Shown here: positions 10,164 through 59,651 of the stretch, one piece after another | Position numbering within the stretch: position 1 is the first letter of the stretch | Layout of the letters: every line of letters begins with the position of its first letter | Source of the DNA: an uncultured Rhizobiaceae group bacterium | Lineage (GTDB): Bacteria; Pseudomonadota; Alphaproteobacteria; Rhizobiales; Rhizobiaceae | DNA: 64,000 nt | Direction: 5' to 3' | Assembly (NCBI GenBank): GCA_938010435.1 | Contig: CALLUS010000013.1 | Span: forward strand, 1-64,000 | Made by a program: the position numbers and the translations under genes | The notes under the pieces: generated by a model | What the model was told of the DNA's origin: nothing | Databases searched by the model: none | Seen by the model: the letters and a program-made list of their open reading frames with translations, nothing else

Positions 10164-10178
10164 AATTCTATCCTTCCA

Positions 10179-13850: not shown

Positions 13851-13864
13851 GACCCAATATTCAA

Positions 13865-13890
13865 CCTGAGGCAAACTCAGGTCATAATTT
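13865..13890 (+). terminator. Probable terminator after eipA
   Basis: CCTGAG (13865-13870) pairs with CTCAGG (13876-13881) around GCAAA, followed by a partly T-rich tail (TCATAATTT). It is a weak but well-placed hairpin, 15 bases after the stop. Confidence 0.45.
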
Positions 13891-14005
13891 AATGAAAGAG
13901 GTGGGAAAAACAGTTGCCTTGTGGCACGTTGTTCCCGCCTCTTTGTGTTTTGGCGCAACTGGCATAAATTGCATTCACACTTGAAGTCTCGGAAAGCTGG
14001 AATCT

Positions 14006-39400: not shown

Positions 39401-41523
39401 AGAACGTCAATTGAATCGCGTTCTGAGAGGGTGACGGTGGATGTGAATGTCCCCGTACCAGTCGCCGTCAGTGGTCCTAGGGTAACAGTTGGTGGAGTTG
39501 GATCAAAAAACGTGGCTACCTGACTTGCAGCTTGGTTGTCATTCACAGCAGCGTCGGTGAAGGTCCCCGCAGAAACATTCAAGCTCACAAACCCTTCTGC
39601 CGTCGGCGTGATTGTTGCCGTGAAGTCTGTACCAGATCCTGCAAGTGTTACCGAACCATTGCTTACTCTCAGATCACCCACTTCAAACAGATTACTAGAG
39701 GCAGGCTCTGACAACGTAATCGCCGATGTGAAGGTGCCAGAACCCGTATCAGTCAAAGGGCCCAATGTGATCGTTGGGGCCGTGCCATCAAAGAATGTAG
39801 CTACAATAACAGGAATTTGGTTGAGATTACCTGCTGCATCACTGAACGCCCCCGGCGGAGCAATAAACTGTATTGGTCCGTCTGATACAGGTGTAATTGT
39901 TGCCGTGAAACTCGTACCGGAACCGGTGAGGGAAAGGCTTCCTTGAGTGACTAAAAAGTCTGACTGTTCAAGCAGATTACCAGAGGCAGGTTCTGACAAT
40001 GTGATGGCAGATGTGAGGGTTCCAGAACCTGTATGCGTAAGCGAACCCAATGTGATCGTGGGTGGAGTACCGTCGAATGTCGCACTCACCTGAGTGGCGG
40101 CCGTATTGCCCTTGTTTGCAATATCGGTGAAAGCAGCAGCCGCAACGTCCAGTGTGACCAGGCCGTCAGCCGCTGGTGTAATTGTTGCTGTAAAACTCGT
40201 ACCGGAACCGGTCAATGTCGCAGCACCATTGCCGACGGTCAGGTCGGCCTGTTCAAACAGATTGCCGGATGCAGGCTCGGACAATGTAATGGCAGATGTG
40301 TAAGTACCGGAACCTGTCGCGGTCAGCGGGCCAAGTGTGATCGTTGGGACGGCTGTATCAACCAAAATACCCACCGTTGAACTAACGCCGTTCAGTGTCA
40401 GATCTAAATCATTGCCCGCAGCATCACGAAGTGTGCCACCGTTAAGGTTCAAAGACACGATCGTAATGCCATCCGGGTCATTATCACCCGCCTGGATCGT
40501 GTAGAAGAACGATCGGATACTGGTGAACGGCGCAGCACCTGATAGTGTGTCCAGATAACGAATTGTACCGCCGATGTTAACGGCTATTTGTGGTGCTCCG
40601 GTTACGCCAACACTCTCATCAAATTGTAGTTGTACCAACAATCGATTTCCAACGTCGAGTACGCCGGGAGCATTCGCAGTAACAAGTTCAATTGTTGGGG
40701 CCGTGCCATCGAATGTCGCACTCACCTGTGTTGCAGCAGTATTGTCGTTGCCCGCCGCATCGGTGAAGGTAGCGGCGGCAACATCCAATGTGACCAGACC
40801 GTCAGCTGCCGGTGTGATGGTCGCGGTGAAGCTCGTACCGGAACCGGTCAGCGCAGCAACACCATTGCCGACTGTCAGGTCGGCCTGTTCAAACAGGTTG
40901 CCGGAAGCAGGTTCTGACAATGTAATGTTAGATTCATATGTGCCAGAGCTTGTGAGGGTCAGAGGGCCAAGTGTGGCCGTTGGAGGTGTGAAATCTGTGA
41001 TGGATGGCGTGAAACTGGCGACTGTTCCAGTTGCACCCGTGACCGAATACAAGTAGCTCCGACCACGAAAGTCGAATGAGAGAACCATGCCTTCTTCTGC
41101 CGCAAAAGAGGCGCCATTAGCGCCCTCCTGCACCAGATTGGTGAACTCGGAGGCACTGCTGCCAGAAACACAACCACTCAAAAAGGCTGTGCTGACCGGA
41201 GGTACCGAATTGTTGATTAATCCCCCGACCCAAAAGCCACCCGCAGGTGCAGAGAAGCCGGCTGGGGTCGTAGCGGTGTTTGCCACCGTAATGCCGCCAA
41301 AGTTATTTAATGCTGAGGAAACAACGTTAATTCCACAGCTTCCAAAATTGGGTGAATGGAGAAAATTGTTATCCAAGGCCCGCGCATCTGATGCAAAACT
41401 CGCTTGCGCAGCCAAACAAATGGCGAGCACTTTGGCGGATGGCGCTTTGCCAAGAATTGATTTTGTTTTCCGCAGGAGCTTTTCAGCCCAGTTCGACGCT
41501 TTGCAATTTCCAACCATGTTCAT
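36469..41523 (-). CDS. Giant autotransporter-type surface protein with Ig-like repeats
   Basis: 1684 residues. An extended N-terminal signal region (basic start, hydrophobic core AKVLAICLAAQASFA near 30-45) leads to a unique head (50-180) with two cysteines. Nine repeats of about 82 residues (TITLGPLTDTGSGTFTSA, LSEPASGNLFEQ, LTGSGTSFTATITP) follow, interrupted by two longer Ig-like units (TIQAGDNDPDGITI; VQAGDNDDDGISIG). A linker region (QEAKQLIANVMQSNARI) leads into a C-terminal 12-strand autotransporter barrel of about 270 residues ending SLSISKKW. Such proteins are type V secreted adhesins with calcium or glycan binding Ig stalks. The start is ATG 41523 or 41517. It lies downstream of a membrane LytTR regulator on the same strand. 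Confidence 0.88.
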   Translation of the reverse strand: MNMVGNCKASNWAEKLLRKTKSILGKAPSAKVLAICLAAQASFASDARALDNNFLHSPNFGSCGINVVSSALNNFGGITVANTATTPAGFSAPAGGFWVGGLINNSVPPVSTAFLSGCVSGSSASEFTNLVQEGANGASFAAEEGMVLSFDFRGRSYLYSVTGATGTVASFTPSITDFTPPTATLGPLTLTSSGTYESNITLSEPASGNLFEQADLTVGNGVAALTGSGTSFTATITPAADGLVTLDVAAATFTDAAGNDNTAATQVSATFDGTAPTIELVTANAPGVLDVGNRLLVQLQFDESVGVTGAPQIAVNIGGTIRYLDTLSGAAPFTSIRSFFYTIQAGDNDPDGITIVSLNLNGGTLRDAAGNDLDLTLNGVSSTVGILVDTAVPTITLGPLTATGSGTYTSAITLSEPASGNLFEQADLTVGNGAATLTGSGTSFTATITPAADGLVTLDVAAAAFTDIANKGNTAATQVSATFDGTPPTITLGSLTHTGSGTLTSAITLSEPASGNLLEQSDFLVTQGSLSLTGSGTSFTATITPVSDGPIQFIAPPGAFSDAAGNLNQIPVIVATFFDGTAPTITLGPLTDTGSGTFTSAITLSEPASSNLFEVGDLRVSNGSVTLAGSGTDFTATITPTAEGFVSLNVSAGTFTDAAVNDNQAASQVATFFDPTPPTVTLGPLTATGTGTFTSTVTLSERDSIDVLELAELVVGNGTANSLVRSISLPGPRTYIATITPAGDGLLTLDVPTGSFTDFAGNDNIAATQVSVLVDTIAPTITLGPLTDTGAGTFTSAITLSEPAAGNLFEQSDLTVRNGTAALTGSGTSFTATITPAADGRVRLNVAAATFTDLTGNDNTASNGVSTRFDETAPVVTEVLVPWDGIFVVGQPLEFLVVFNELIVADVSGGTPQLAINIGGTVRQAIYLPQIATPFMHFQYIVQAGDNDDDGISIGAINPNGGAISDLGGNTANLTLNSVESTVGVLVDTNAPTIVLGPLTDTGSGTFTSAITLSEAASGDLFELADLTVGNGTATLTGSGTSFVATLTPVSFGSLLTLDVAAGAFTDAADIENTAAAQVSIIPDNTPPTITLGTLSDAGAGTYTSAITLSELPSGNLFEQSDLTVSNGTATLTGSGTSFTATIMPVADGIVSLDVAAAAFTDAAGNDNTAATQVSTTFDGTSPTITLGPLVNTGSGTYTAVITLSEPASGNLFEQSDLTVSNGTAILIGSGTSFTATLTPQKRGQLIELSVAAAAFTDYAGNASTATNTVSVLVDAIQEAKQLIANVMQSNARIILQNQPKIGRRLDRLAGRVYGAGSISVFGASITNSGLPIDAVIDRTGGTFSFSLTRARQVQGKLQIRANPLSLADAVGLAVTQPTSLKSSNEHFPRQRLDQDTSKPQPADKTYALINPERFPKIDDENASTEFLPRYDVWIEGTVGHQNLSDGQSDFAIVHVGADYLVTPNLLVGVGAQFDWTDYNSNSSATSSDANAIGYGFLVGPYITAKLYDPLYLDARLSFGQSYTDVSPLGTFTDNVTTDRILASAALVGEMDWNDITIRPELRANYYRDVSQAYTDSLGFTVDGVTYETGVLEFGPSFTKSFDLENGVIATPKFSFEGVWTFAERNTGATLDTRAGTGLRGRTEAGLDIATANGFNFTVSGHYDGIGDSDYEAYGGSLSISKKW
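37700..40986 (-). repeat. In-frame tandem Ig-like repeats of the autotransporter
   Basis: Nine units of about 246 bases plus two divergent units of about 300 bases code for the stalk. Segments such as TTGTTCAAACAGATTACCAG recur almost unchanged among units, so the DNA repeats are recent enough to recombine and change stalk length. Confidence 0.85.
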
Positions 41524-42638: not shown

Positions 42639-43168
42639 TGCGCTTCTCGTATTTACGATGCGTTTGATTACGACAAAACCCTAGAAATGAGATACGCCTA
42701 CAATACGGTATCGCAAGACGTGGTTCGTTTAATCGCAAACTGGTCATTTGCAACACAAATGTTGCGAATTGTCCGCAGATTGTCACCCAACGGTCTGCTC
42801 AGTTTCAACCAGAATGAATCCAAAATCAAAACCGGGCCAAATTTCAATACCCAATCAATTGAATGAATAACGTGGTCTCTCGATTTGACAGTGAGGTTCT
42901 TGACCGCACTTGTTTCAAAATACGTATTATCAGTTCGTTCAAACATTGCTTTTTGAGTAATTTGTGTGAGTGACAGTCTTTCAATTTAAAAGAGCGCGTT
43001 TTGCCAATACCCCCTAATTTCCGTATTAGCATCGGTTTGACCAGTTATTGTTTAACTGCGAGTGGTCTGAGTGCAGTACACTCTAGTGCTTCTATTGGTA
43101 TTAGACGTTCCTTCGAAACATGTCGCACAAAGAACACCAACAAAAGGCACTCCGAGTTACTTCGTCCG
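42639..43168. other. Intergenic region between LytTR gene and decayed IS element
   Basis: About 530 bases, AT-rich, with no convincing gene in either strand. The only structure noted is the inverted repeat GCAACA-N4-TGTTGC near 42749-42764. The open frames here lack start signals and family features. Confidence 0.4.
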
Positions 43169-43184
43169 GAGGCTGTGTGGAAAG
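43169..43184 (+). repeat. Left terminal inverted repeat of IS1182-like element
   Basis: GAGGCTGTGTGGAAAG, 15 of 16 positions matching the right end after reverse complement. Confidence 0.8.
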
Positions 43185-43252
43185 TCAGCCGTTGCGGATC
43201 CTTTTTCTTGGAGTTGCGGTTTTGGCTGGATTTGGGGTGTGTATGTCCGAAT

Positions 43253-44784
43253 TTAACGTCCTAACAGTCGGTTTTGATAAGGTAACTGGTTTAGAGGGCG
43301 AACAAGGTCCGTCAGGCCTTCATCGCTTGGATGAAGGTCGGTATGCCAATGATATTTCACTCTGGTCATATTGTAGGCAAGGACGTGCAACGCCATTTCT
43401 GTCGTAACATTTTTCAACCGCCTCATCTTGAAGTGTGTGTTGCCCATCCATGCTTTGATAGTTCCATAAGGATGTTCAACAGTCATCGAGCGCAATGCCA
43501 ATTTTGATGGATCATCATCGATACGTTGCTGCATACGTTCCAGAACATCTTCATGCTTCCAGCGACGAATACGCCGCTCTTTGGACGGTGTGCATCTGTC
43601 TTTGATCACACAGCCTGCACAGAAACTGCTGTAATACAGGCGCTGCACTTTTCCATCCAGTTCAGAGGTCAAATGCTCGCCAACAGAACAAACATAGACA
43701 TCCTTATTGGTCACATAGACAAAGTCAGCCCGATCAAAACGCCCCCGTGCCGCTGCACCTGAAGTCACGGGTTTGGAAACTGTGGCGGTGATGTCCGCCG
43801 TTTCGCAGGTAAGTATCTCTTCACTTTTGAAGTAACCTTTATCAGCAATGGCCTCGATCTTATCCACTCCCATCGTTTTACGGGCTGCAATTGCCATGGA
43901 GGACAGGCATCCCGATCATATCCAAAGGTCGTCACCTCATGGGCAACGATGAGATGATGTTTGGCCTCGACCGCTGTTTGCACGTTGTAGCCAATAACCT
44001 TCGGTATTCGAGGCGTTGTCATCATGGGTTTTGCATCAGGATCGCTCAATGAGACCTGCGTTTCGCCCGTTACATCCATACGCTTTTCAATTGATTGATA
44101 GCGTCCCGCTTCCTTGTGCAGGTGAGCCAGCTTTCTGCTGGCGCGAACAACTTGCGATGTGGGACAGTTGAGCCGGTCTTCGCAAGCGCCTCATCAGCCC
44201 TATCCAATTCCATCAGATAGCGTTCGATGGCTTTGTCGATCTCACCAAGCTTCTGTTTCAGCTTGCCACGCGTATAGCTTCTAGCCTTCGAATTGACCGC
44301 CTTAAACTTGCAACCATCCGCTGCCTGGCAGGCAATTACGAAGCAAATGCCGAGAGGGGATAGCGATGACATCGCTGTCCAGCAGTTTGATATCCCGGCA
44401 CAGCGTAACAAACTGCTGACACACCTTGCGGATGGCAAGACCGTTGTCTTTGCGAAAGTCAGCAATTGTTTTGAAGTCTGGTTTCAGCCGACCAGTCAAC
44501 CAGATCAGTTCAAGACTGCGACCGCATTCACGTTCCAAACGCCGCGATGATTGAATTTGATTGAGATACCCGTACAAATAAACCCCGAGCATGAGAGCAA
44601 GATGGTAACCGGGGCGACCAGTTACTTCAGGTTCGACAACGAACCCAAGCGATCCCAAATCGAGCATCTCAATAAACGCATCAATCACGCGGACCGGACT
44701 ATCATCCTCAACATAATCATCAAGACAATCAGGCAGCAGCGTAACCTGGTCTCGGCCAATACCTTCGATAAACCGCTTCATCAC
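43253..44784 (-). pseudogene. IS1182-family transposase, frameshifted
   Basis: The coding information runs through at least four fragments in changing frames: 44784-about 44350 (start MMKRFIEGIGRDQVTLLPDC, DUF772-type N-terminal domain with GRPGYHLALMLGVYLYGYLN), about 44350-44085 (KLKQKLGEIDKAIERYLMEL), 44079-about 43905 (VTGETQVSLSDPDAKPMM with the first catalytic Asp region) and 43897-43253 (IADKGYFKSEEI, then CVIKDRCTPSKERRIRRW and RSMTVEHPYGTIKAWMG with the catalytic Glu). Three frameshifts are needed to join them, so no full transposase can be made. Confidence 0.88.
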
Positions 44785-44836
44785 AAAGTCTCCGATTTAA
44801 TCGAGGAAATTATATCATAATCACAAGGTCGGCGCT

Positions 44837-44852
44837 CTTTTCACACAGCCTC
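44837..44852 (-). repeat. Right terminal inverted repeat of IS1182-like element
   Basis: Reads GAGGCTGTGTGAAAAG on the minus strand, the partner of 43169-43184. Confidence 0.8.
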
Positions 44853-44889
44853 TCGGCTCACCTGCCATCAAGCAGAATTCGATTTGCAC

Positions 44890-44917
44890 AAAAAAGCCCC
44901 GCCAAAGCAGGGCTTTT
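44890..44917 (-). terminator. Terminator of the TRAP/monooxygenase operon
   Basis: On the minus strand AAAAGCCCTGC and GCGGGGCTTTTTT form a stem around TTTG, followed by T. It lies 28 bases after the dctP stop and closes the six-gene operon. Confidence 0.9.
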
Positions 44918-44944
44918 CGATTTCTAATGCTTGAGCAAAGAACC

Positions 44945-46012
44945 TTACTTTAGGTCTTTCGCATTGGCAGCACTGATGTCTGCTTCTGCAGCGGATACAG
45001 CTGATGTGAGTGCGTCGAACACTTCTGGGCCGCCTTTGACGTTGGCTTTGAACCAATCGTACACGGGTGCAGCAGATGTTTTGAACGCTGCTTTTTCAGC
45101 TGGTGTTGGTACATAAAGATCACCGCCACCTGCAACAAAGTCTTCATAAGCCTTGATCGACTTACGCTTTGGCGAAGCAAAGGTTGCTTGTTGAAGCGCA
45201 GAAAAACCATCGACCACAACTTGACGAATGTCTTCCGGCATGCCTTTGAACTTGTCGTTGTTCATCCACCACAACGCTCCCATGTAAGCATGGCCGTCGA
45301 GGGTTACATATTTCAGACCAGCATCAGGGAACTTCATGCCCATAATGTCGGTGATGCCGTTTTTAGAACCTTCAACAACACCTGTTTGGAATGATGTGAA
45401 AAGCTCCGGCCATGGGATTGGCGTAGGTGCAGCACCTAGTGCTTTCACAAGTTCTTGTGGAAGATCAGCAACAACTGTGCGGATTTTCAAACCTTCCATG
45501 TCCTTCGGCATTTGAACACGACGTTTGGTGTTCGCAAAGTTGCGCCAACCGCCTGTGTTGCCGATTGTCATGAGACGTATTTTGTCGCCTGAATCTTTCA
45601 GCGCCATATCACGCACTATGCGTGTGAAATCACCGGACAATACGTTTTCCGCAATGCGGTCATTGGCCATCAAATATGGAAGATCGAGAACCTGAACATA
45701 GGGGAACGCGCCCGCTGCGCCACCTGATGTGGAGATGTAAACATCGATTGAACCGTCAGCCACGCCTTGCAGACATTCAGCACCCTTTGAGCAAAGCTGT
45801 GTGCCGATGAAGAGTTCAACAGCCACTTTGCCGTTGGATGCCGCTTCAACGTAGTTTTTGAAAACCACGAGACCATCATAATCTTCATCGTTTTCGTTGG
45901 AGTTGGCTGTGGCACGAATTGTATAGTCCGCAGCCATGGCGCTGAGCGCGCTGCCAGCCAACAGGGTTGCAGTCATCGCAACCATGCCGAGCTTTTTTGT
46001 GAGTGTTTTCAT
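44945..46012 (-). CDS. TRAP transporter substrate-binding protein (DctP family)
   Basis: 355 residues with a signal peptide (about 1-27, SALSAMAA). Mature start DYTIRATANSNENDEDYDG; DctP motifs include the organic-anion arginine region KDMEGLKIRTVV, and PTPIPWPELFTSFQTGVVEG. The protein captures a periplasmic anion (carboxylate or sulfonate) and delivers it to DctQM. It is the last gene of the operon that begins with the flavin monooxygenase, 91 bases after dctM. Context suggests the ligand is the monooxygenase substrate, perhaps sulfoquinovose or a relative. Confidence 0.93.
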   Translation of the reverse strand: MKTLTKKLGMVAMTATLLAGSALSAMAADYTIRATANSNENDEDYDGLVVFKNYVEAASNGKVAVELFIGTQLCSKGAECLQGVADGSIDVYISTSGGAAGAFPYVQVLDLPYLMANDRIAENVLSGDFTRIVRDMALKDSGDKIRLMTIGNTGGWRNFANTKRRVQMPKDMEGLKIRTVVADLPQELVKALGAAPTPIPWPELFTSFQTGVVEGSKNGITDIMGMKFPDAGLKYVTLDGHAYMGALWWMNNDKFKGMPEDIRQVVVDGFSALQQATFASPKRKSIKAYEDFVAGGGDLYVPTPAEKAAFKTSAAPVYDWFKANVKGGPEVFDALTSAVSAAEADISAANAKDLK

Positions 46013-46103
46013 TTAAAGTCCTCCGAGTTTTGAGCGTCTCTTAGACACCCTTGGTAAAATCGTATCACCGACACGCTGTCGGTCAACGAAAGTTTGAAAA
46101 AGA

Positions 46104-47639
46104 TTAGAAAATTCCCCGCAACAACGGTCCCCATAGATCGACGTCTTTAACAAAGCCGAGCCACGATGGAATGCCCAGTGAGATGAACGGGAAATAAGTG
46201 ATCAGGAAAATCACAAACACTTCCACCGCAAGGAACGGAAGGATCGCGCGTGAAATGGTTTCCACTTTCACACCGGAAACCGACGACGCCACAAACAACA
46301 CTAACCCCATGGGCGGCGTAGCCAGACCCACGGTCAGGTTCACCGACATAATCATGGCAAAATGCACGGGATGAATACCCAAATTAATAAAAATGGGTGC
46401 CAAGATTGGGCCAAGAATGATGATCGCCGGACCCGCATCCAAAAACATGCCAACGACAAACAACAGCAAGTTGATGAGCAACAACAGCATCAACGGATCG
46501 CTTGTGAGCGTCAGAATAAAGTTGGCCAAATTTTCCGCAGCATAAGATAGGCTGACAACTGTTTTAAAAGCCATGGCCGCGCCAACCAACAAAAGCACAA
46601 CAGATGATGTGATCGCAGCCTTTATGAGAACGTCGGGTAATTCGTTCAGTTTCAAAGTGCCGAGAACCAACAATCCCAAAAGTGCGGCATAAGCCACGGC
46701 CAGAGCAGAAGCTTCTGTCGGCGTCGCCACTCCACCCAAAATGCCACCTAGAATAATCACAGGCGTGAGCAATGGCAGCACAGCACGTTTAGCGATGATG
46801 CGGAACTCAGGAGATGTCATCGGACGTGTGGTGACAAAAATTCCGTGAGAGACGATCAATGTTGCAAATGCAAAAACCCAATATCCGTAAGTCTCGTGAA
46901 AACCAGCTCCCATGTGTTGCAGTGTTTCCTGAGGTATGAACGCCCAAAGGATTGCGGCAAATATCAAACGCCCGATCACACGCGCTGCAATGTTCTCACC
47001 AAAACTGATATCCACATTATCAGGCACATAACGTTTGGCCGGAGGATAATCATAATGGTTCGCCATAACTCGTGTGACAATCATCAAACCGAGGCCAACA
47101 AGAATGCCGGGAACAATTCCACCTGCGAACAGCGCCGCCACGGAGACTTCCATCACATAGGCGTAAATGATCATAATTCCAGAAGGCGGAATGATCGGTC
47201 CAATGACGGAAGACGCCGCCGTGATCGCCGCTGAAAACTTGCGCGTGTAACCTTCTTTTTCCATGGCCGGAATGAGCATGGAGCCGAGCGCAGATGTGTC
47301 CGCTACTGCAGAGCCGGACATGCCCGCAAACAACATAGAAGACAAAATGTTCACTTGCGCCAAGCCGCCGCGCACCGAACCAATGATCGCTTGTGAGAAC
47401 GAGACTAAGCGTTCGGTGATACCACCACGGTTCATCAATTCACCCGCCAACATGAAAAACGGGATGGCCAGCAAAACGCCATTGTCGATGCCGTTGAATA
47501 TATTGCGATACATCAGCGCCACATCACGCTCTTGCCCGTTGAGATAGAGCAACAGCCCCGGCGCTGCGAGCATGGCAAAGAATACGGGAACACCGACCAG
47601 CAATAGAACGAGAAAGAGCGGAAGGAACCACGCGAGCAT
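46104..47639 (-). CDS. TRAP transporter large permease (DctM family)
   Basis: 511 residues, longer than the usual 425-440. N-terminal LFLVLLLVGVPVFFAMLAAP, SGSAVADTSALGSMLIPAM and GPIIPPSGIMIIYAY are DctM signatures. The sodium-coupled uptake channel. An extra stretch of about 75 residues with two membrane helices (near AILWAFIPQETLQHMGAGFH) sits in the middle, which accounts for the length. The start is four bases after the dctQ stop. Confidence 0.93.
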   Translation of the reverse strand: MLAWFLPLFLVLLLVGVPVFFAMLAAPGLLLYLNGQERDVALMYRNIFNGIDNGVLLAIPFFMLAGELMNRGGITERLVSFSQAIIGSVRGGLAQVNILSSMLFAGMSGSAVADTSALGSMLIPAMEKEGYTRKFSAAITAASSVIGPIIPPSGIMIIYAYVMEVSVAALFAGGIVPGILVGLGLMIVTRVMANHYDYPPAKRYVPDNVDISFGENIAARVIGRLIFAAILWAFIPQETLQHMGAGFHETYGYWVFAFATLIVSHGIFVTTRPMTSPEFRIIAKRAVLPLLTPVIILGGILGGVATPTEASALAVAYAALLGLLVLGTLKLNELPDVLIKAAITSSVVLLLVGAAMAFKTVVSLSYAAENLANFILTLTSDPLMLLLLINLLLFVVGMFLDAGPAIIILGPILAPIFINLGIHPVHFAMIMSVNLTVGLATPPMGLVLFVASSVSGVKVETISRAILPFLAVEVFVIFLITYFPFISLGIPSWLGFVKDVDLWGPLLRGIF

Positions 47640-47642
47640 CGG

Positions 47643-48245
47643 TTAATCTCCCACCATGGACATGGGAGAAACAGGTGGCGGGAACGCTTCATCACTCCAC
47701 ACGAGCCTGCCGAACAACCGCAAGATCAATTCCACAGAAACCGAAATCAGCATCCCCAACAACACGCTCATGGCGAGGTAAACATAGGCCGTGCGGAATT
47801 GCAGTTTCGTGCCCAAGAGTTGATTAATGCCAGAATCTTGCAACAAGCGGTTCAGACCAGAGGAGTCAAACAACAACGGTGCAGAAAAATGCGCCCATGC
47901 TTGATCCAACATGATCACGAGCACAGCAAGAGATAGAACAAGAATTGCAAGGGTGAGAAACAATCGCGCTTTACGCGGCAACAGGTCTGGCAGCATATCA
48001 ATTGAGACAAAACCAGCATATCGATATGCTGATGGAGCAACCAGCGCCATCATCCAGATCATCAGCGCACGCGCTGCTTCTTCTGGCCAAGGCAAGGCAT
48101 TGTTGAGAACGTAACGATAAAAAATTTGCAAAAGAACAGCTGTAACCATCAAGCCCATCGCGACACATCCAATGCCACGGCCGAACTTCAAAACATGATG
48201 ATTGATCTTGCCAATCACATGGATAATGGCTTGCAACCCTCCCAA
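47643..48245 (-). CDS. TRAP transporter small permease (DctQ family)
   Basis: 200 residues with four membrane segments. The motif RYVLNNALPWPEEAARALMI (aromatic then WPEE/R) is the DctQ signature. A C-terminal extension of about 30 residues lies in the cytoplasm. It is coupled to dctM (four-base gap) and follows the flavin reductase by 65 bases in the same operon. Confidence 0.92.
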   Translation of the reverse strand: MGGLQAIIHVIGKINHHVLKFGRGIGCVAMGLMVTAVLLQIFYRYVLNNALPWPEEAARALMIWMMALVAPSAYRYAGFVSIDMLPDLLPRKARLFLTLAILVLSLAVLVIMLDQAWAHFSAPLLFDSSGLNRLLQDSGINQLLGTKLQFRTAYVYLAMSVLLGMLISVSVELILRLFGRLVWSDEAFPPPVSPMSMVGD

Positions 48246-48310
48246 TCGTCGTCCTCCCTATTATGCTGCGTCGCTTAAACCTCCATCAAGAAACGCACTT
48301 TGAACTTCTG

Positions 48311-48868
48311 TCAGCTCTGCGGGTTGAACCCACCAAACTGGCCTTTCGCAAAAATCAACGGTGCACCTTTATTGGCCACAACGCCTTTCACCTGCCCCAC
48401 AATAATCACGTGATCACCAGCATCATGAACCGCTTGTTGATGACAATCAAAACGCGTCAAGGCATTGTTTAAAAGTGGAACACTATAGCCATCATAGCGC
48501 CAGTCACACGTTTCAAACGCATCAGCATTTTTCGCAAATTCCAGCGCTAGTTTATCCTGATCTTCACGCATCACATGAATGGAATAGTGCTCAGCATTTT
48601 GAAACGCATCGAACCGACCAGATGTTTTTGACAATGACCACAACACCAAAGCAGGCTCCAAAGACACCGAAGCAAACGAGTTAACCGTCATGCCTATAGG
48701 CCCTTCATTGGTAGACGTCGTAATGACCGTCACGCCTGTTCCAAAATGCCCAAGTGCATTGCGATATGCGCGCGCGTTTTCTAGTGACGGGACCAGCACA
48801 TTCTCATGCAGATCTTCGAACGAAGGAGCGGTAAGCCTTGCATCAGCAGTCATGACACCTACTCCCAT
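48311..48868 (-). CDS. Flavin reductase, partner of flavin monooxygenase (SmoA-like)
   Basis: 185 residues of the flavin reductase like / HpaC family: FGTGVTVITTSTNEGPIGMT binds FMN, followed by NSFASVSLEPALVLWSLSK and a C-terminal DHVIIVGQVKGVV strand. It would reduce FMN with NAD(P)H and hand it to the SsuD-type monooxygenase two genes upstream. ATG 48868 overlaps the preceding stop (TGATG) with GAGG seven bases upstream, favouring coupled translation; ATG 48853 is an alternative. The gene order monooxygenase-AKR-reductase matches the sulfoquinovose smo enzyme set. Confidence 0.88.
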   Translation of the reverse strand: MGVGVMTADARLTAPSFEDLHENVLVPSLENARAYRNALGHFGTGVTVITTSTNEGPIGMTVNSFASVSLEPALVLWSLSKTSGRFDAFQNAEHYSIHVMREDQDKLALEFAKNADAFETCDWRYDGYSVPLLNNALTRFDCHQQAVHDAGDHVIIVGQVKGVVANKGAPLIFAKGQFGGFNPQS

Positions 48869-49770
48869 CAAGCGACCTCATGACCAAGTGAATGGGTATA
48901 GATTTCAAACCAGGTTTGTCGATCAATAGAAATCTTCATTGCATCAGCAAGTGACTTAATGCGGTCCAGATTGTTGGTTCCAAGAACCGGCAGAATTTTT
49001 GCAGGATGCGCCAGCAACCAAGCCACGGCCACCGCGTCAACGCCCACATTTTGCTCCCTAGCAATGCGCTTCATTGCAGCGCGCAGATCCGCTGTATCCG
49101 CGTTGCTGTCATCAAACAGCGCACCACCCGCCAGAGGCGACCACGCCATGGGTTTGATACCGTGTTGCTGATGGAATGCCAGATCGCCATTTGTGAAAGC
49201 ATCAAGGGCCAGAACACTCATCTCGATTTGGTTCGTGATCAATTTTTCCTTCATACCGGACTGTAGAAGGTTCCAATCATGCGGTTTGAAATTCGAAACA
49301 CCAACAGATCCTACTTTGCCAGAAGCAACCGCAGCATCAAGTACCGCACCCGTTTCAATATGGTCCATCAATGGGTCAGGACGGTGAATGAGCAATAAGT
49401 CGATATGCTCAATCTGCATTTCCTTCAAAGAACATTCGATCGACTTTTCAATATGCGTTGCCGATGTATCGTAATATTTCACCCGTGCATCGCTGTAGCG
49501 ACCAACCGGTGCAACGATATCGCATTTGGTGATAATTTCCATTTTGTCACGTAATTGCGGAGCTTGTGCCAAACATGCACCCAATATGGTTTCAGCTTCA
49601 TAACCACCGTAAATATCAGCCTGATCAAAGCTGGTAATGCCTTGCTCAAGACAAGCTTCTATTTTCGCCTGAACATGACCAACAGATGTGTCTGCATCAT
49701 CGCCCAAACGCCACATGCCATAAATCACGCGGCTGAGTTCAAGTTTCTCGTTTAGTTTTACGCGTTCCAT
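48868..49770 (-). CDS. Aldo/keto reductase (YdhF/SmoB-like)
   Basis: 300 residues. Catalytic tetrad: Asp and Tyr in FDQADIYGGYEAE, Lys in IITKCDIV, His in LLLIHRPDPLMD. The NADP-binding C-terminus has VLGTNNLDRIKSLADA. The YdhF-type subfamily features GMWRLGDDADTS and AWSPLAGGALF are present. In the known SMO pathway, SmoB of this subfamily reduces 6-oxo-glucose to glucose with NADPH. Start overlaps the monooxygenase stop (TAATG). Confidence 0.9.
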   Translation of the reverse strand: MERVKLNEKLELSRVIYGMWRLGDDADTSVGHVQAKIEACLEQGITSFDQADIYGGYEAETILGACLAQAPQLRDKMEIITKCDIVAPVGRYSDARVKYYDTSATHIEKSIECSLKEMQIEHIDLLLIHRPDPLMDHIETGAVLDAAVASGKVGSVGVSNFKPHDWNLLQSGMKEKLITNQIEMSVLALDAFTNGDLAFHQQHGIKPMAWSPLAGGALFDDSNADTADLRAAMKRIAREQNVGVDAVAVAWLLAHPAKILPVLGTNNLDRIKSLADAMKISIDRQTWFEIYTHSLGHEVA

Positions 49771-50987
49771 TAACGGCGTTCTCCTACACCAAGCGGTGTC
49801 TTAGGTGTTGTGTCTGGTACCCGCCCCTGCAAATGCGGAAGCGAGCAAGTTTCTAAATGCGGCAAAACACGTTTCCCGAAACTTTCACACTCTTCCAAGT
49901 GCGGATAGCCGGAAAAGATAAACGCACGAATGCCCATCTTTTTATAGTCTTCAATCTGCGACAAAATCTGATCTGTTGAACCCACCAGCGCAGCACCACA
50001 GCCGGAACGCGCCCGTCCCACACCTGTCCACAAGTGCGGTTCTATATAACCTTCAAGATCAGCCAGTTCGCGATTTTTAGCTTGATGTGACACACCAAGC
50101 GAAGTCGCGTCCAATGCTCGTTCGCGGATCAACTTACCTTGCTCATCGTCTAATTTTGAAACCAACTCGCGGGCATATTCTTTCGCTTCAGCTTCCGTGT
50201 CACGCACAATCATGTGCACACGCAAACCATAGTCCAAAACGCGACCATAATGTTCGGCACGTTCGTTCACAGCTTTCATGCGTTCAGCCAGTTCTTCTTT
50301 TTTCTCCGGCCACATCAAATAAACGTCACAATGCTCACCACACAGGTTGAGAGCTGGCGGAGAATAGCCACCAAAATACAACAACGGCCCACCGTTTTGT
50401 TGGTACGGTTTAGCTGGTTCTGTGGTCAGGCCTTCAAACTGATAGACCTCACCTTGATAGTTAATTTCATCTTGCGTCCACGCCTGTTTCAAAATCTCTA
50501 CAACTTCACGAGAACGCTGATAACGAAGTGCGCTGTCTTCTTTTTGCCCGGGGAAATCCGACGAAATAATATTAACCGTCAATCGCCCCTTCATCATGTG
50601 GTCCAGCGTTGCGATAGTACGCGCTAACATAATGGGCTGCATTTCGCCGCAACGGACCGCCGCTAACATGTTAATATTTTCTGTTAGTGGCGCATTGCCG
50701 GCAACAAAGGTGAGAGTGTCTTGTCCCACCTGATAGGAAGATGGACATAGAATATTGCGATAGCCCAGCTTATCGGCTTTTTGAATGATTTTGGATGTGT
50801 TTTCCCAAGACGAGCGCAAATCTCCGTCCGGTTGACCAAGATACTGATAATCATCTGAACACAATGGCGCAAACCACGATACTTCAGCCGCTGTCGTATT
50901 TTCAGACCGGATGGGAACGATAGACATATCCTGTTTCAGCCCTGTACTCGAATAATGCGCTTTGCTAAGCGTTTGTGTATCAACCAT
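49770..50987 (-). CDS. LLM-class flavin-dependent monooxygenase (SsuD/SmoC-like)
   Basis: 405 residues of the bacterial luciferase-like / alkanesulfonate monooxygenase family. Seen are EVSWFAPLCSDDYQYLGQPD, NILCPSSYQVGQDT, RCGEMQPIMLARTIATLD, the FMN region GRLTVNIISSDFPGQKED, and YFGGYSPPA; GVGRARSGCGAALVGST is near the C-terminus. SsuD and SmoC use FMNH2 and oxygen to split a C-S bond and release sulfite. The start may be ATG 50987 or ATG 50927; neither has a good Shine-Dalgarno. Genes for a flavin reductase and aldo/keto reductase follow with overlapping starts, so the three form one translational unit. Substrate unproven; sulfoquinovose is the leading hypothesis. Confidence 0.88.
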   Translation of the reverse strand: MVDTQTLSKAHYSSTGLKQDMSIVPIRSENTTAAEVSWFAPLCSDDYQYLGQPDGDLRSSWENTSKIIQKADKLGYRNILCPSSYQVGQDTLTFVAGNAPLTENINMLAAVRCGEMQPIMLARTIATLDHMMKGRLTVNIISSDFPGQKEDSALRYQRSREVVEILKQAWTQDEINYQGEVYQFEGLTTEPAKPYQQNGGPLLYFGGYSPPALNLCGEHCDVYLMWPEKKEELAERMKAVNERAEHYGRVLDYGLRVHMIVRDTEAEAKEYARELVSKLDDEQGKLIRERALDATSLGVSHQAKNRELADLEGYIEPHLWTGVGRARSGCGAALVGSTDQILSQIEDYKKMGIRAFIFSGYPHLEECESFGKRVLPHLETCSLPHLQGRVPDTTPKTPLGVGERR

Positions 50988-51014
50988 ATATCAATATATC
51001 AATAGTGTATCAAT
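50978..51014. promoter_or_regulatory. TATCAA(T/C) repeat array, likely operator
   Basis: TATCAAC at 50978 and TATCAAT at 50989, 50997 and 51008 lie between the divergent monooxygenase and GntR genes. The spacing is 11, 8, 11, that is two pairs each one helical turn apart. The GntR protein encoded 45 bases away is the obvious candidate to bind. The first copy overlaps the start codon region of the monooxygenase gene. Confidence 0.55.
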
Positions 51015-51058
51015 CTGAATATGCCCCATAGTAAACTCCAAACAGCGACACTCACAAC

Positions 51059-51754
51059 ATGACAAGTGGAAAACTCCCGCTTCATATCCAGGTGAGCGAA
51101 ATGCTGGCACGCGAAATTCAGGCTGGTATTTACACAGATGGTTCAAAACTCGTGCCCGAACGCGACATGGCACAAGAATTAGAAATATCGGTTGGCACTT
51201 TGCGCAAAGCACTGGCCGATCTTACAGAAAAGGGATTACTCGAGCGAGTACATGGTTCGGGAAATTACATTCGAAAATCATCCCAAGCTCAAACGATATA
51301 CGGTTTCTTCCGCTTAGAATTATTGAAAGGTGGCGGCTTACCAACTGCAGAAATTATTTCTTTGAAGAAACAAAAAAAGCCACGTGATTTGCCCGAGTTT
51401 GGACACTCGGAATATGGGTTTAGGATCAGACGTTGGCGCAAACTCAATGGTGTAAATGCAGCGATCGAGGAAATTTGGTTGGACAGCAGTTACGCAGACA
51501 ATGTCACACAAGCTGATTTGCCAGATTCTCTTTACCAATATTACCGTCAGTCTTTGAACCTGTGGATCACCCGGGCAGAAGACTCTGTCAGTATTGCTCC
51601 CCCACCTTCTTGGAAACCAAACAACTTTGCATCCAATGCCTCTGTTTGGGGGTATATTGAGCGGCACAGCTTTGACCAAAACAACACGATCGCAGAATAT
51701 TCACGAACATGGTTTGACCCCACATCAACACGCTTTATGGCCCGTTGGACCTAA
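51059..51754 (+). CDS. GntR-family transcriptional regulator
   Basis: 231 residues. The winged helix-turn-helix (LPLHIQVSEMLAREIQAGIY, LVPERDMAQELEISVGTLRK, GLLERVHGSGNYI) matches the HutC-type GntR subfamily. A ligand-binding UTRA-like domain of about 150 residues follows, starting with the FRLELLKGGGLPTAEI segment. It is divergent from the monooxygenase operon and is followed by the Gfo/Idh gene 22 bases downstream, so it most likely controls both. Confidence 0.9.
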   Translation: MTSGKLPLHIQVSEMLAREIQAGIYTDGSKLVPERDMAQELEISVGTLRKALADLTEKGLLERVHGSGNYIRKSSQAQTIYGFFRLELLKGGGLPTAEIISLKKQKKPRDLPEFGHSEYGFRIRRWRKLNGVNAAIEEIWLDSSYADNVTQADLPDSLYQYYRQSLNLWITRAEDSVSIAPPPSWKPNNFASNASVWGYIERHSFDQNNTIAEYSRTWFDPTSTRFMARWT

Positions 51755-51776
51755 CTGATATCGAAGGAATTCAAAT

Positions 51777-52865
51777 TTGACGACTTTGCGTTACGGCATC
51801 ATAGGATGCGGCATGATGGGCCAAGAGCACATCAAAAACATTCAATTGTTGGATGATACAGAAATCGTGGCAATCTTCGAACCAGATGCTGGAATGCGCG
51901 ATATTGCAAAGTCTCTCATCCCCAACGTCGCCTTTGAAAATTCAATTGAAAAATTGCTGAACCGTGGAGACATTGATTGTCTTGTAATTGTCAGCCCGAA
52001 CTATGTGCATGCAGAACAATTGCGTGAAATCGCCCACATCAACCCGCTCCCTATACTGGTGGAAAAACCGTTGATCACCGATCCAAAAGATCAGGCAGAT
52101 ATTGAACACATGATTGTAACCTACCCCGCCCCGATTTGGGTGGCGATGGAATATCGCTACATGCCACCTGTTGCTGCTCTGATCAACGAAGTGGAAAAAA
52201 CCACTGGCGGCGTCAAGCTTTTGACCATCCGTGAACATCGTTTTCCATTTTTGGAAAAGGTCGGAGACTGGAACCGTTTCAACGAAAAATCCGGTGGCAC
52301 GCTGGTGGAAAAATGTTGCCACTTCTTCGATCTCATGCGGCTCATTCTCAAAAGTGAACCCGTGCGTGTCATGGCGTCAGCCGGACAATCCGTGAACCAC
52401 CTAGATGAAACTTACCAAGGGCGCACACCTGACATTTGGGACAATGGTTATGTGATCGTAGACTTTTCATCGGGCGCACGGGCCATGTTGGAATTGTGCA
52501 TGTTCGCAGAAGGTGCGCAGTATCAAGAAGAGATTTCCGCCGTGGGTACCAAAGGAAAAATTGAATGTCTCGTCCCGGGCCCCGGTCGTTTTTGGCCAGA
52601 ACATTTGGGGGCGGCGCCGACACCCAAACTCATTATCAGCCCACGAAGTCCACGTGGTCCAGTAGAGCGCACTATAGCCGTTGACCCTCTGTTGCTGGAA
52701 GCCGGTGACCACAACGGTTCTACATTTTACCAACACCAAAAATTTCAACAGGTTGTTTTAAAAAACGGAACATCTGAAGTTTCCCTCCATGATGGATTGA
52801 CGGCAGTTCGCATGGGTATGGCCGCTCAAGAATCTGCATCAACAGGCCAATCCGTAGATTTGTAA
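51777..52865 (+). CDS. Gfo/Idh/MocA-family NAD(P)-dependent protein, possible GH188-type glycosidase
   Basis: 362 residues starting at TTG with AAGGAA eight bases upstream. Rossmann start YGIIGCGMMGQEHIKN, conserved VEKPL motif (catalytic-lysine region), and the C-terminal domain with GGTLVEKCCHFFDLMRLIL carrying the conserved His-Asp. The family includes sugar dehydrogenases and NAD-dependent glycosidases. GH188 sulfoquinovosidases have this fold, which would fit a sulfoquinovose locus that otherwise has no glycosidase. Dehydrogenase activity on a sugar is the alternative. Co-transcribed with the GntR gene. Confidence 0.85.
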   Translation: MTTLRYGIIGCGMMGQEHIKNIQLLDDTEIVAIFEPDAGMRDIAKSLIPNVAFENSIEKLLNRGDIDCLVIVSPNYVHAEQLREIAHINPLPILVEKPLITDPKDQADIEHMIVTYPAPIWVAMEYRYMPPVAALINEVEKTTGGVKLLTIREHRFPFLEKVGDWNRFNEKSGGTLVEKCCHFFDLMRLILKSEPVRVMASAGQSVNHLDETYQGRTPDIWDNGYVIVDFSSGARAMLELCMFAEGAQYQEEISAVGTKGKIECLVPGPGRFWPEHLGAAPTPKLIISPRSPRGPVERTIAVDPLLLEAGDHNGSTFYQHQKFQQVVLKNGTSEVSLHDGLTAVRMGMAAQESASTGQSVDL

Positions 52866-52880
52866 AGGCACATTAAAAAC

Positions 52881-52910
52881 AAAGCAGGCCCCTGAAGGAG
52901 CCTGTTTCAA
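52881..52910 (+). terminator. Probable terminator after the Gfo/Idh gene
   Basis: CAGGC (52885-52889) and GCCTG (52900-52904) pair, with a further CC/GG around TGAA, followed by TTTC. It lies between convergent genes and could serve both strands. Confidence 0.55.
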
Positions 52911-52929
52911 TGTTTGCAAGTGCTATTTG

Positions 52930-55185
52930 TTAGATAACCAAAAGCCCATCATCAAATTTCTCATTCAAGTCTACATCAAGAACATTGTTCAAGTTAACGA
53001 CGTCGTAAGACGCGCCATTGAGTTCCACACTAATCCGGGTGCCTGTACCCACTTCACGGCTATCAAAATCAGCCAAGGTTAAACCCAAAGCAGAAAAATC
53101 CAAAATATCAACCACGGAGAAATCCAATATTACGTCCATGAACGAACTGGCGCCATCAAAAATGTCAGCTGTTTCCCAGATATAGGTTTCTGTACCAACA
53201 CCACCGGACATAACATCAACGCCGGCACCACCCTGAATAATATCATGGCCGGAACTTGTGTCGATACGGTCATTACCTGCACCGCCATAAATGGTATCAT
53301 GGCCACCCTCGCCGAGGAGAACGTCATCGCCATCGTTGCCATAGACTACATCATCTGCATGACCGGCACGAACGATATCGTCGCCATTACCTGCGGTGAT
53401 GTGGTCATATCCGGCATTCCCGATAATATAGTCATTGCCATCATCACCCGTGATCACATCATCACCTGAACCACCATCAATACGATCGTTGCCTAGACCA
53501 CCGCTAATCAGATCATCATCTGCTTGGCCGTAAATACGATCATTGCCATCTCCACCATTGAGTGTGTCGTCACCAACACCACCTAAAAGATAGTCGACAC
53601 CTTCATCACCATTCACAACATCATCGCCACGACCACCATTTAGGCGATCATCACCCAGACCACCATGCAGTGTGTCATTGTCATTATCCCCCAACAAAAC
53701 GTCGTTGCCGGTACCGCCAAAAATTAGATCATTACCAAAGCTACCACGTGCAAAGTCGTCACCTTCGCCACCATGAATTTCATCGGTATCTTGAGCACCG
53801 TAAATGCGATCATTACCGCCTTCACCGTAAGCTATATCATTGCCGGACCCGGTATAAATCAGGTCGTTTCCTGTGCCACCATGGAGGACATCATTGCCCG
53901 TTTCTCCATAAAGACGATCGTCATCATCGCCGCCATAAATCATGTCATTATCCGAGCCGCCGAACAGTGTATCTGTACCTTCATCACCATAGATCAGATC
54001 ATCACCATAGCTGCCGCGCACAAAGTCATGGCCTGAACCACCATGAATTTCATCTGTGTTCTGAGCACCATAAATACGATCATCGCCGTCTTCGCCATAA
54101 GCTCTGTCAGTGCCGGACCCAGTATAAATCAGATCATTGCCCATCCCACCATATAGGATATCATTACCCGATTCTCCATAAAGACGGTCTTCATCATCCC
54201 CGCCATGAACCGTGTCATTGTTGGAACCACCAAACAAAGTATCAGCGCCAGCATTTCCACGTACAATATCATCGCCGCCATCAGCGCGGACAAAGTCTAT
54301 ACCGTTGCCACCAGATATCTCATCATTGCCTGCTCCACCATAAATACGATCATTGCCTGCACCGCCTTCAACGGTATCATGACCGCTGTGTGCAAAAATG
54401 TAATCATCACCTTCATCACCATATAAGAAGTCACCACTGGTCCCACCATTGATACGGTCATTGCCTAAACCACCGTGAATGGTGTCGACGCCAGAGCTTC
54501 CGTTCAACCGGTCGTCGCCTGAATCACCGTAGATCAGATCGTCGTCAATGCCGCCGTTGACAATATCATCACCATCACCACCATGAATTTCGTCTTTTCC
54601 TGATCGACCATAAAGGGTGTCATTGCCACCACGTCCATCCAGGTAATCGTCACCTGCATTGCCATCTAACAAATTATCATTAGCGTCACCGCGCAACTGG
54701 TCATCTTGCAGACCGCCAGTGATATTTTCTATCCCTGAATATTGGTTAGAATATTGGTCGATGCCGGATTCCAAATCAATGTGAAAAGCATAATTTGCAA
54801 CAGTACTGCCAATTATTTGAAGACGGTCAACACCAGTTCCTCCAATAAATATGTCGCCCGTTCCATCATCGAAACCAGCATATAAAACATCATTGCCGGA
54901 ACCACCGTTCAAAGTGTCTTTGCCGTCGCCACCAATCAAAATATCGTTGCCAGCTCCACCATTCAATATATCAGCACCATTGCCACCAACAAGAGTATCA
55001 ACACCGTTACCACCATAGAGCGTGTCGTTGCCAATGCCACCGTTCAATGTATCATTGCCGTTGCGGCCGTAAAGTTTGTCATCTCCGGCTAAGCCATTGA
55101 TAATATCAGGATTGCCCGAGTTAGAACTGTTACGACCTCTGATGGTATCGTTTCCGTTCGTTCCGTTATATATTCTCTCAGCCAT
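52930..55185 (-). CDS. RTX (hemolysin-type calcium-binding) repeat protein, type I secreted
   Basis: 751 residues. From residue 6 to about 660 it consists almost wholly of calcium-binding nonapeptides GGxGxDxhx (for example GGNGADILN, GGAGNDRIY), arranged as parallel beta-rolls. A short break at about 120-155 (GIDQYSNQYSGIEN) divides two arrays. The last 90 residues (YIWETADIFDGASSFMDVIL onward) resemble the C-terminal secretion domain of serralysin-like proteins. There is no N-terminal signal peptide and no enzymatic domain. Likely exported by a type I system encoded elsewhere as a calcium-dependent surface or matrix protein. Confidence 0.88.
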   Translation of the reverse strand: MAERIYNGTNGNDTIRGRNSSNSGNPDIINGLAGDDKLYGRNGNDTLNGGIGNDTLYGGNGVDTLVGGNGADILNGGAGNDILIGGDGKDTLNGGSGNDVLYAGFDDGTGDIFIGGTGVDRLQIIGSTVANYAFHIDLESGIDQYSNQYSGIENITGGLQDDQLRGDANDNLLDGNAGDDYLDGRGGNDTLYGRSGKDEIHGGDGDDIVNGGIDDDLIYGDSGDDRLNGSSGVDTIHGGLGNDRINGGTSGDFLYGDEGDDYIFAHSGHDTVEGGAGNDRIYGGAGNDEISGGNGIDFVRADGGDDIVRGNAGADTLFGGSNNDTVHGGDDEDRLYGESGNDILYGGMGNDLIYTGSGTDRAYGEDGDDRIYGAQNTDEIHGGSGHDFVRGSYGDDLIYGDEGTDTLFGGSDNDMIYGGDDDDRLYGETGNDVLHGGTGNDLIYTGSGNDIAYGEGGNDRIYGAQDTDEIHGGEGDDFARGSFGNDLIFGGTGNDVLLGDNDNDTLHGGLGDDRLNGGRGDDVVNGDEGVDYLLGGVGDDTLNGGDGNDRIYGQADDDLISGGLGNDRIDGGSGDDVITGDDGNDYIIGNAGYDHITAGNGDDIVRAGHADDVVYGNDGDDVLLGEGGHDTIYGGAGNDRIDTSSGHDIIQGGAGVDVMSGGVGTETYIWETADIFDGASSFMDVILDFSVVDILDFSALGLTLADFDSREVGTGTRISVELNGASYDVVNLNNVLDVDLNEKFDDGLLVI
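53704..54243 (-). repeat. Tandem duplication of a 90-residue block in the RTX protein
   Basis: Two consecutive 270-base blocks (54243-53974 and 53973-53704) encode closely similar sequences, each running from DTLFGGS through DRLYGE, NDLIYTGSG, RIYGAQ and TDEIHGG to the GS(Y/F)G(D/N)DLI region. It is a higher-order repeat above the nonapeptide level. Confidence 0.8.
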
Positions 55186-59629: not shown

Positions 59630-59651
59630 AGTCACAGCCCTCAAATGTCAG

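Follow-up and report, generated by a model that had tools for sequence, protein, structure and literature searches.

A predicted sulfolytic sulfoquinovose gene cluster with a TRAP importer, and a linked Sel1/MauG-like gene pair, in a Rhizobiaceae group bacterium

Predicted sulfoquinovose catabolic cluster

Sulfoquinovose (SQ) is the sulfur sugar of plant and algal membranes. A stretch of 64,000 nucleotides from an uncultured Rhizobiaceae group bacterium (contig CALLUS010000013.1 of assembly GCA_938010435.1; hereafter the window) was analysed, and positions 44945-52865 very probably hold a complete sulfolytic cluster for SQ catabolism. In this cluster, a tripartite ATP-independent periplasmic (TRAP) transporter would import the substrate, an enzyme of glycoside hydrolase family 188 (GH188) would hydrolyse the glycoside, SmoC and SmoA would carry out the desulfonation and SmoB the reduction to glucose. 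An earlier reading of the letters alone (the sequence-only reading) had described an operon of a monooxygenase, an aldo/keto reductase and a flavin reductase, a full TRAP transporter, a divergent GntR regulator and a Gfo/Idh gene. All eight genes were found as described, as intact open frames at the positions first given.

On the minus strand the transcription order is smoC-smoB-smoA-dctQ-dctM-dctP, and the divergent plus strand carries the GntR/UTRA regulator and the Gfo/Idh/MocA gene. The Pfam matches to DctP, DctM, DctQ, Flavin_Reduct, Aldo_ket_red, Bac_luciferase, GntR with UTRA, and GFO_IDH_MocA were each above their cut-offs, and the TRAP transporter is complete in its three components. 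The smoC/smoB overlap reads TAATG and the smoB/smoA overlap TGATG; given the latter, the smoA start was placed at 48868 instead of the TTG at 48871 of the open reading frame list. The longest smoC frame begins at 50987, and its start is probably the ATG at 50927 (M21), because most SmoC homologues align from about residue 21. The features are as follows.

44945-46012, minus strand: dctP, TRAP substrate-binding protein with a visible leader, predicted receptor for SQ or SQ-glycerol (Pfam DctP 175.5 bits; R157, R178, N218 and W201 kept as in IseP)
46104-47639, minus strand: dctM, TRAP large permease (Pfam DctM 374.6 bits)
47643-48245, minus strand: dctQ, TRAP small permease (Pfam DctQ 75.8 bits)
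48311-48868, minus strand: smoA, predicted flavin reductase supplying reduced flavin mononucleotide (FMNH2) (Flavin_Reduct 123.8 bits; start ATG overlaps the smoB stop)
48868-49770, minus strand: smoB, aldo/keto reductase predicted to convert 6-dehydroglucose to glucose (441 bits and 66.3% identity over 297 aa to 7bby)
49770-50927, minus strand: smoC, predicted FMNH2-dependent sulfoquinovose monooxygenase (669.8 bits and 74.2% identity over 384 aa to 7oh2)
50998-51013, minus strand: promoter box TTGATACACTATTGAT, probable GntR operator (TTGAT direct repeat with 11-base spacing)
51059-51754, plus strand: divergent GntR/UTRA regulator (Pfam GntR 50.3 and UTRA 68.6 bits; nearby in 76/80 loci)
51777-52865, plus strand: sqgA, GH188-type sulfoquinovosidase predicted to depend on nicotinamide adenine dinucleotide (NAD+), TTG start (540 bits to 8zn9; eight published residues kept)

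The gene identities are observed, and the reactions in this organism are predicted from them. Periplasmic DctP would bind SQ and/or sulfoquinovosyl glycerol through the sulfonate group, which two arginines and an asparagine would hold, and DctQM would import the ligand with an ion gradient. SqgA would split the SQ glycoside with NAD+, SmoA would give FMNH2 to SmoC, and SmoC would cut the C-S bond to yield sulfite and 6-dehydroglucose, which SmoB would reduce to glucose. The GntR/UTRA regulator would act on TTGATACACTATTGAT between the divergent operons.

Predicted desulfonation enzymes

Comparison with solved structures placed SmoC closest to 7oh2 (669.8 bits) and 7olf (660 bits), both of which we take to be SmoC, their names in the Protein Data Bank (PDB) being generic. 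They were followed by 7jv3 (210 bits), presumably MsuD, and by SsuD 1m41 (189.4 bits), to which SmoC is 34.8% identical against 74.2% to 7oh2. At E 0.001, the 3.57-Mb genome gave no Bac_luciferase match other than SmoC. Its matches to the NCBIfam SsuD, SfnG, RutA and NtaA/DmoA models all fell under the cut-offs, as expected for a separate subfamily, and the match to NtaA-type models was weak (80.8 bits, cut-off 279.7). The grouping with non-sulfonate enzymes that would have spoken against the sequence-only reading was therefore not seen, and neither was a loss of the sulfonate-binding residues: SsuD R226, H228, R297 and Y331 are kept in SmoC, while H11 and C54 are changed, the roles of all six being those we presume for SsuD. 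In the alignment, 7oh2 likewise has a cysteine in the place of H11.

SmoB is 66.3% identical to 7bby, which we take to be SmoB. The smoB gene overlaps smoC. In the literature, the sulfo-SMO (sulfoquinovose monooxygenase) pathway is recognised by SmoB and SmoC being encoded together (PMC13372026), as is the case here. By their sequences, the three enzymes are of the SmoC, SmoB and SmoA types, as had been proposed.

Sulfoquinovosidase

The gene of the Gfo/Idh/MocA family had been left unexplained. The obtained results showed that its product, SqgA, matches 8zn9 with 540 bits and 66.9% identity, 8qc3 with 370 bits and 8qc2 with 368 bits, the next best structure scoring 57; 8QC2 is a GH188 structure (PMC11465081). 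The residues published as catalytic or SQ-binding in ArSqgA (PMC10755693) were located in the window protein. The sulfonate triad R166, L170 (by its backbone) and K172 corresponds to R155, L159 and K161, and the catalytic and substrate residues K107, Y136, E189, H193 and H321 correspond to K97, Y126, E178, H182 and H312. The ArSqgA numbering was counted from the printed chain so that R166 fits; in that count the published Glu163 falls on a valine, one off, and the neighbouring glutamate, at 164, is kept. Within the genome, the protein nearest to SqgA has 28% identity to it. An inositol-type dehydrogenase was considered for this gene and rejected, the iolG model giving 101 bits against a cut-off of 355 and the GH188 structures matching far better.

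On these grounds, the Gfo/Idh gene is assigned to the GH188 NAD+-dependent type of sulfoquinovosidase (SQase). The sequence-only reading was right that GH31 is absent, for the whole genome gave one GH31 match, under the cut-off; it erred in taking the locus to lack an SQase. Roseobacter sulfo-SMO clusters carry GH188 near-universally and lack GH31 (PMC10755693), so a GH188 gene was to be expected in the window. SqgA is presumably cytoplasmic because a leader is not visible.

Occurrence of the cluster and its promoter box

The distribution of the cluster was analysed on the best 80 of at least 580 SmoC relatives confirmed in a scan of genome contigs, a sample that leans to close relatives; the nearest of them include Rhizobiaceae-group metagenome-assembled genomes (MAGs). 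GntR was found in 76/80 loci, SmoA in 70/80, SmoB in 69/80, the Gfo/Idh gene SqgA in 67/80 (64/73 among loci with at least 2.1 kb upstream) and TRAP genes in 37/80, an observed synteny far beyond chance. The window is one instance of a type widespread among the relatives examined; the variant with a TRAP importer was thus borne out, but not as a one-off. Sugar ATP-binding cassette (ABC) transporter genes, called when two of three probes lay nearby, were present in 14/43 non-TRAP loci, a lower bound, and in 0/37 TRAP loci.

The SmoC tree places the window within a clade of eight TRAP rows (support 100/99) in which Rhizobiaceae-group MAGs stand together with gammaproteobacterial ones; this is suggestive of horizontal transfer, with MAG binning as a caveat. 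The TRAP label changes 17 times on this tree, 14 of the changes being forced by starred branches; they may overstate gains and losses because cut contigs were scored as non-TRAP. At E 1e-130, this DctP was found in none of the 16 listed genomes of the same family. Cultivated strains with a syntenic locus include Phaeobacter italicus CECT 7645 (L077) and Ruegeria meonggei CECT 8411.

Two side observations were made on these loci. A YeiH-type membrane protein (PF03601), possibly a sulfite or sulfate exporter as we presume, adjoins the SMO/TRAP genes in L027 and L096 (by family match) and in L079 and L112 (by cluster or tblastn match); the window's own genome has one YeiH-type protein, on another contig. 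Five SMO loci of Nioella and similar bacteria (L026, L038, L054, L060 and L071) have neither TRAP nor ABC by the counting rule, and three of them (L038, L054 and L071) show a gene for a sugar-binding protein (cluster 20) at the distal end of the stretch covered.

The region between the divergent genes could be compared in 77 cases, namely the window and 76 loci, as four of the 80 gave no usable region. A TTGAT direct repeat with 11-base spacing (TTGATN6TTGAT) was observed in 71/77, and at least two half-sites in 74/77 against a mean of 3.6 in mononucleotide shuffles. The window's copy, TTGATACACTATTGAT at 50998-51013, is the only exact one in the genome; three more places match at two mismatches, against one for a reversed control pattern. 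This conserved box is probably the operator of the GntR protein, the regulation itself being predicted. A perfect palindrome, TTGATN4ATCAA, was rejected as operator: it occurs in 22/77 regions, not including the window's, whereas the direct repeat fits 71/77 with the window among them. No Rfam match at the gathering threshold was obtained for RNA elements in 43000-53500.

Loci selected through DctP alone

Selection by DctP alone gave 10 genomes besides the window's own among 385 genomes of the class and 11 among 398 of the phylum, 17 of them different, and 16 of the 17 regions were taken (G865, with a score equal to that of G867, was left out). Ten of the 16 hold SMO genes, three are sulfo-EMP-like (sulfoglycolytic Embden-Meyerhof-Parnas), one is of a TauD-dioxygenase type, one is without recognised SQ genes, and one, L107, is a contig of 3.2 kb and too short to read. 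SQ genes therefore adjoin the TRAP genes in 14 of the 15 readable loci.

L095, a locus picked through its MauG-like gene, is likewise sulfo-EMP-like; its isomerase matches only one NCBIfam model, that of sulfoquinovose isomerase (255.7 bits, cut-off 700). L098, L104 and L105 hold homologues of the L095 PfkB kinase, DeoC/LacD-type aldolase, isomerase, mutarotase and aldehyde dehydrogenase, plus SqgA; the pathway of all four is predicted from this gene content. L113 combines a TauD-family dioxygenase with an aldo/keto reductase and SqgA. Its dioxygenase matches 9yut, described as TauD/TfdA-like, at 535 bits and is predicted to be an SQ dioxygenase. The box TTGATACACTATTGAT occurs within two mismatches in all 10 DctP-selected SMO loci, in L096 and in L113, and was not found at two mismatches in L094, L095, L098, L103, L104, L105 or L107. 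A further locus, L094 (G029, 8073-14824), has the SQ-type TRAP genes and the Sel1/MauG-like pair described below, with a PhyH-type dioxygenase and an AraC regulator in place of the SMO genes; this dioxygenase possibly provides another C-S cleaving route.

6-Dehydroglucose and its reductase are common to the monooxygenase and dioxygenase routes, whereas all that the sulfo-EMP-like route has in common with these two is SQ and its glycoside. The EMP-type rows, four in number, stand in two places of the DctP tree and not in one clade, with three label changes, all forced by starred branches: L095 lies beside an SMO row, and L098, L104 and L105 fall in a group that also holds L103, the locus without recognised SQ genes. 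Some branches are long, so details are unsure. The two places imply that the TRAP genes have switched partners. That this DctP family is linked to SQ genes from more than one pathway ranks among the strongest new points of the analysis.

Sel1/MauG-like gene pair

A pair of genes overlooked in the sequence-only reading was observed 8.6 kb downstream of dctP, at 34515-36308.

34515-35843, minus strand: MauG-like di-heme protein gene (CCP_MauG 112.9 bits)
35835-36308, plus strand: small Sel1-repeat protein gene with a visible leader, divergent partner of the MauG-like gene (Sel1 46.2 bits)

The MauG-like gene lies downstream of dctP on the same strand in 23/30 TRAP loci where at least 8 kb of sequence was available (25/37 overall) and in 0/36 non-TRAP loci with such room, the Sel1 gene standing between them on the opposite strand. 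The pair is also present in 12/16 of the DctP-selected regions. Sel1 was found in 41/41 loci with a di-heme gene at 57% identity or more, a count that includes the window's own piece, and was absent wherever a di-heme match was lacking; most of the 41 had been fetched through SmoC or DctP. In the window, a broken insertion sequence element, a LytTR regulator and a 1684-aa autotransporter-like gene separate the pair from dctP, and in L002, the closest relative, the two are about 1.4 kb apart. The linkage of the pair to TRAP likewise belongs among the strongest new points.

The haem motifs C62-C65-H66 and C271-C274-H275 are kept in at least 97% of 39 rows, and Sel1 W74, W92, W111 and W152 in at least 97% of 41 rows. 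At the position of the MacA axial ligand, which we take to be a methionine, the window protein and its L002 orthologue have a glycine, and the consensus of 20 an alanine. Two MauG-like orthologues fell under the NCBIfam cut-offs. A model of the di-heme protein (predicted local distance difference test score, pLDDT, 73.9) gave TM-scores by query length of about 0.4-0.5 to cytochrome c peroxidases and MauG alike, the peroxidase YhjA coming first. Some MauG-like frames of 570-650 aa looked like fusions; this was rejected, as the extra N-terminal frame is antisense to the Sel1 gene and the match covers a protein of about 440 aa.

MauG and MbnH act on partner proteins by modifying their tryptophans. 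By analogy, the bold reading of the pair is that the di-heme enzyme may modify Sel1 or DctP, and the plain reading is that it may be a periplasmic peroxidase. That the pair is an ordinary neighbour of this kind, without a part in SQ uptake, has close to an even chance. Such a neighbour would account for its absence from 7/30 TRAP loci with room and from 4/16 DctP-selected regions, and for two more distant paralogue contexts, L085 and L097 (37% and 48% identity), that have no such DctP nearby. It also agrees with the gene arrangement: a plain continuation of the dctP operon was rejected because the Sel1 gene intervenes on the other strand, and the one match to TTGATACACTATTGAT in the window does not lie beside the pair. 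As the box was found neither there nor in the sulfo-EMP-like loci, no shared regulon is claimed for either. What speaks against an ordinary neighbour is the search of 150 genomes of the order with the di-heme protein, which gave 15 matches at E 1e-100 or better: all four at 60% identity or more (G000, G051, G029 and G093) have an SQ-type DctP nearby, whatever the catabolic genes.

We tentatively propose that the TRAP genes and the periplasmic MauG-like/Sel1 pair could form a dedicated uptake module for SQ or SQ-glycerol in alpha- and gammaproteobacteria, many of marine genera. Such a module would be mobile and combined with monooxygenase and EMP-type pathways, the TRAP part also with the dioxygenase type, and its di-heme enzyme may oxidatively modify either Sel1, which has the four conserved tryptophans, or DctP.

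Ligand of the TRAP receptor

IseP is, according to its authors, the first sulfonate-specific TRAP receptor (PMC11668362). In the alignment, IseP R156, R177, N217, W200 and H239 are kept in DctP as R157, R178, N218, W201 and H241, while D77, S95, N98, Y153, L221, S242 and H244 are replaced by G, T, G, G, D, M and A. The additional sulfonate contacts S95, N98 and Y153 are thus changed (T95, G98 and G154), and DctP was not classed as an IseP for this reason. An alignment of 24 DctPs (22 of SMO loci, the window counted among them, plus one EMP-like and one PhyH-type) shows no variation at R157, R178, N218, W201, H241, D222, T95, G98 and G154. This pattern fits a pocket in which the anion-holding half is kept for the sulfonate and the other half is roomier for a sugar. 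A Foldseek search with the DctP model ranked IseP first by E-value at a negligible margin (2.2e-21 vs 2.3e-21), with 4p47 reaching a higher TM-score.

Several observations weigh against an SQ importer. DctP is only 30.2% identical to IseP; the sequence scores of 4p47, 4p9k and 4pdh are above that of IseP; and the arginine pair also occurs in carboxylate TRAP receptors (PMC11668362) and is hence not diagnostic, so that the ligand of DctP cannot be read from its sequence. The DctP model is of moderate confidence (pLDDT 75.8). L103, selected by DctP, has TRAP, Sel1 and MauG genes with no SQ gene recognised in 17 kb, and L094 has only the PhyH-type dioxygenase, of unassigned substrate, beside its TRAP genes. 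The SqgA proteins of the four sulfo-EMP-like loci are 49-53% identical to that of the window. By the thresholds used, 43/80 SMO loci are without these TRAP genes, some being cut contigs (L020, for example, ends at dctQ), and TRAP is therefore not essential to the sulfo-SMO pathway.

We consider it unlikely that the transporter is a separate unit adjoining the SMO genes and carries another substrate, for instance a sugar acid, or a short sulfonate of the type of 2,3-dihydroxypropane-1-sulfonate (DHPS). TRAP receptors typically bind carboxylates (PMC11668362), and the three higher-scoring receptors and the two loci just named, L103 and L094, would suit this account. It is opposed by the adjoining SQ genes in the 14 readable loci, by a sulfo-EMP-like type that has nothing but SQ and its glycoside in common with the other two, and by the two places of the EMP-type rows on the DctP tree. 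More improbable still is a role of the enzymes on a sulfonated sugar or glycoside close to SQ but different from it, or one chiefly in scavenging sulfur rather than carbon. Their specificity is predicted, SmoC (74%) and SqgA (67%) are not identical to their nearest solved relatives and other sulfosugars such as sulfofucose exist (PMC12421959), but all eight GH188 residues published as SQ-contacting or catalytic are conserved, and L095, with the same TRAP, has the isomerase that matches no NCBIfam model other than that of SQ isomerase. SQ catabolism with import by TRAP is the preferred reading.

Surroundings of the cluster

Directly downstream of dctP, several short frames on the minus strand (43253-44784) are the remains of a DUF772/DDE-type transposase. 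The 1684-aa protein encoded between dctP and the Sel1/MauG-like pair (36469-41523, minus strand) is repetitive and secreted, with a C-terminus that looks autotransporter-barrel-like by eye; L002 has no such gene at the corresponding place. A 751-aa protein with RTX calcium-binding nonapeptide repeats (482 bits in 28 stretches) adjoins sqgA at 52930-55185 on the minus strand. Further right, a match to the phage tape-measure model TMP_3 (57110-59644, minus strand; 42.1 bits, cut-off 41) suggests a prophage at the right end of the window.

Comparison with known systems

Annual production of SQ is put at about 10 billion tons (PMC10755693). In the literature consulted, the importers named for SQ are of the ABC type or the transporter SftA. 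A link between TRAP and SQ was not found in the literature searched, where "trap" in the text consulted of SQ and sulfosugar papers denotes an ion trap, a verb or a trap column, and no SQ-centred paper on MauG was found there by title. If the proposed module is real, it would, to our knowledge, mark the first case of sulfosugar import by a TRAP system and of a di-heme enzyme associated with TRAP import. A TRAP gene may well already be drawn in other SQ papers or in the supplement of PMC10755693. If this TRAP family does import SQ or SQ-glycerol, DctP would be a pathway-independent genomic marker for SQ use, and TRAP import would explain the supply of a cytoplasmic GH188 enzyme.

Relative to the sulfo-SMO of Agrobacterium, the window has TRAP for the SQ-glycerol ABC transporter and GH188 for the SQase, which in Agrobacterium is presumably GH31. 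The likeness to the sulfo-SMO (sulfo-ASMO) of Agrobacterium tumefaciens and Novosphingobium aromaticivorans lies in SmoC, SmoB and SmoA types in one operon, with sulfite and glucose as predicted products (PMC12890257, PMC9594981). As the sequence-only reading had it, full TRAP genes stand where the Agrobacterium pathway has its SQ-glycerol ABC transporter (PMC9594981), with SQ as the predicted TRAP substrate. The marine Roseobacter sulfo-SMO clusters (Kaur et al. 2023, PMC10755693) share with the window the SMO genes and a GH188 SQase without GH31, and many Rhodobacterales loci have the same gene order as the window. Neither "TRAP" nor "transport" occurs as a word in the main text of that paper, whose supplementary figures may show TRAP.

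With IseP (PMC11668362), DctP shares the sulfonate contacts R156, R177 and N217 and the pocket-floor residue W200. It differs in overall sequence and at D77, S95, N98, Y153, S242 and H244, where the residues of DctP, G, T, G, G, M and A, would suit a bigger ligand. The MauG-like protein shares two CxxCH haem motifs and a CCP_MauG domain with MauG/MbnH and bacterial cytochrome c peroxidases, and a small partner gene adjacent to the di-heme gene as we take to be the case in MbnH-MbnP. It differs from these enzymes in its length of about 440 aa, its Sel1-repeat partner and the glycine at the place of the MacA axial methionine. The cluster as a whole is a known pathway, sulfo-SMO, with a predicted TRAP importer, a combination that is new within the literature searched.

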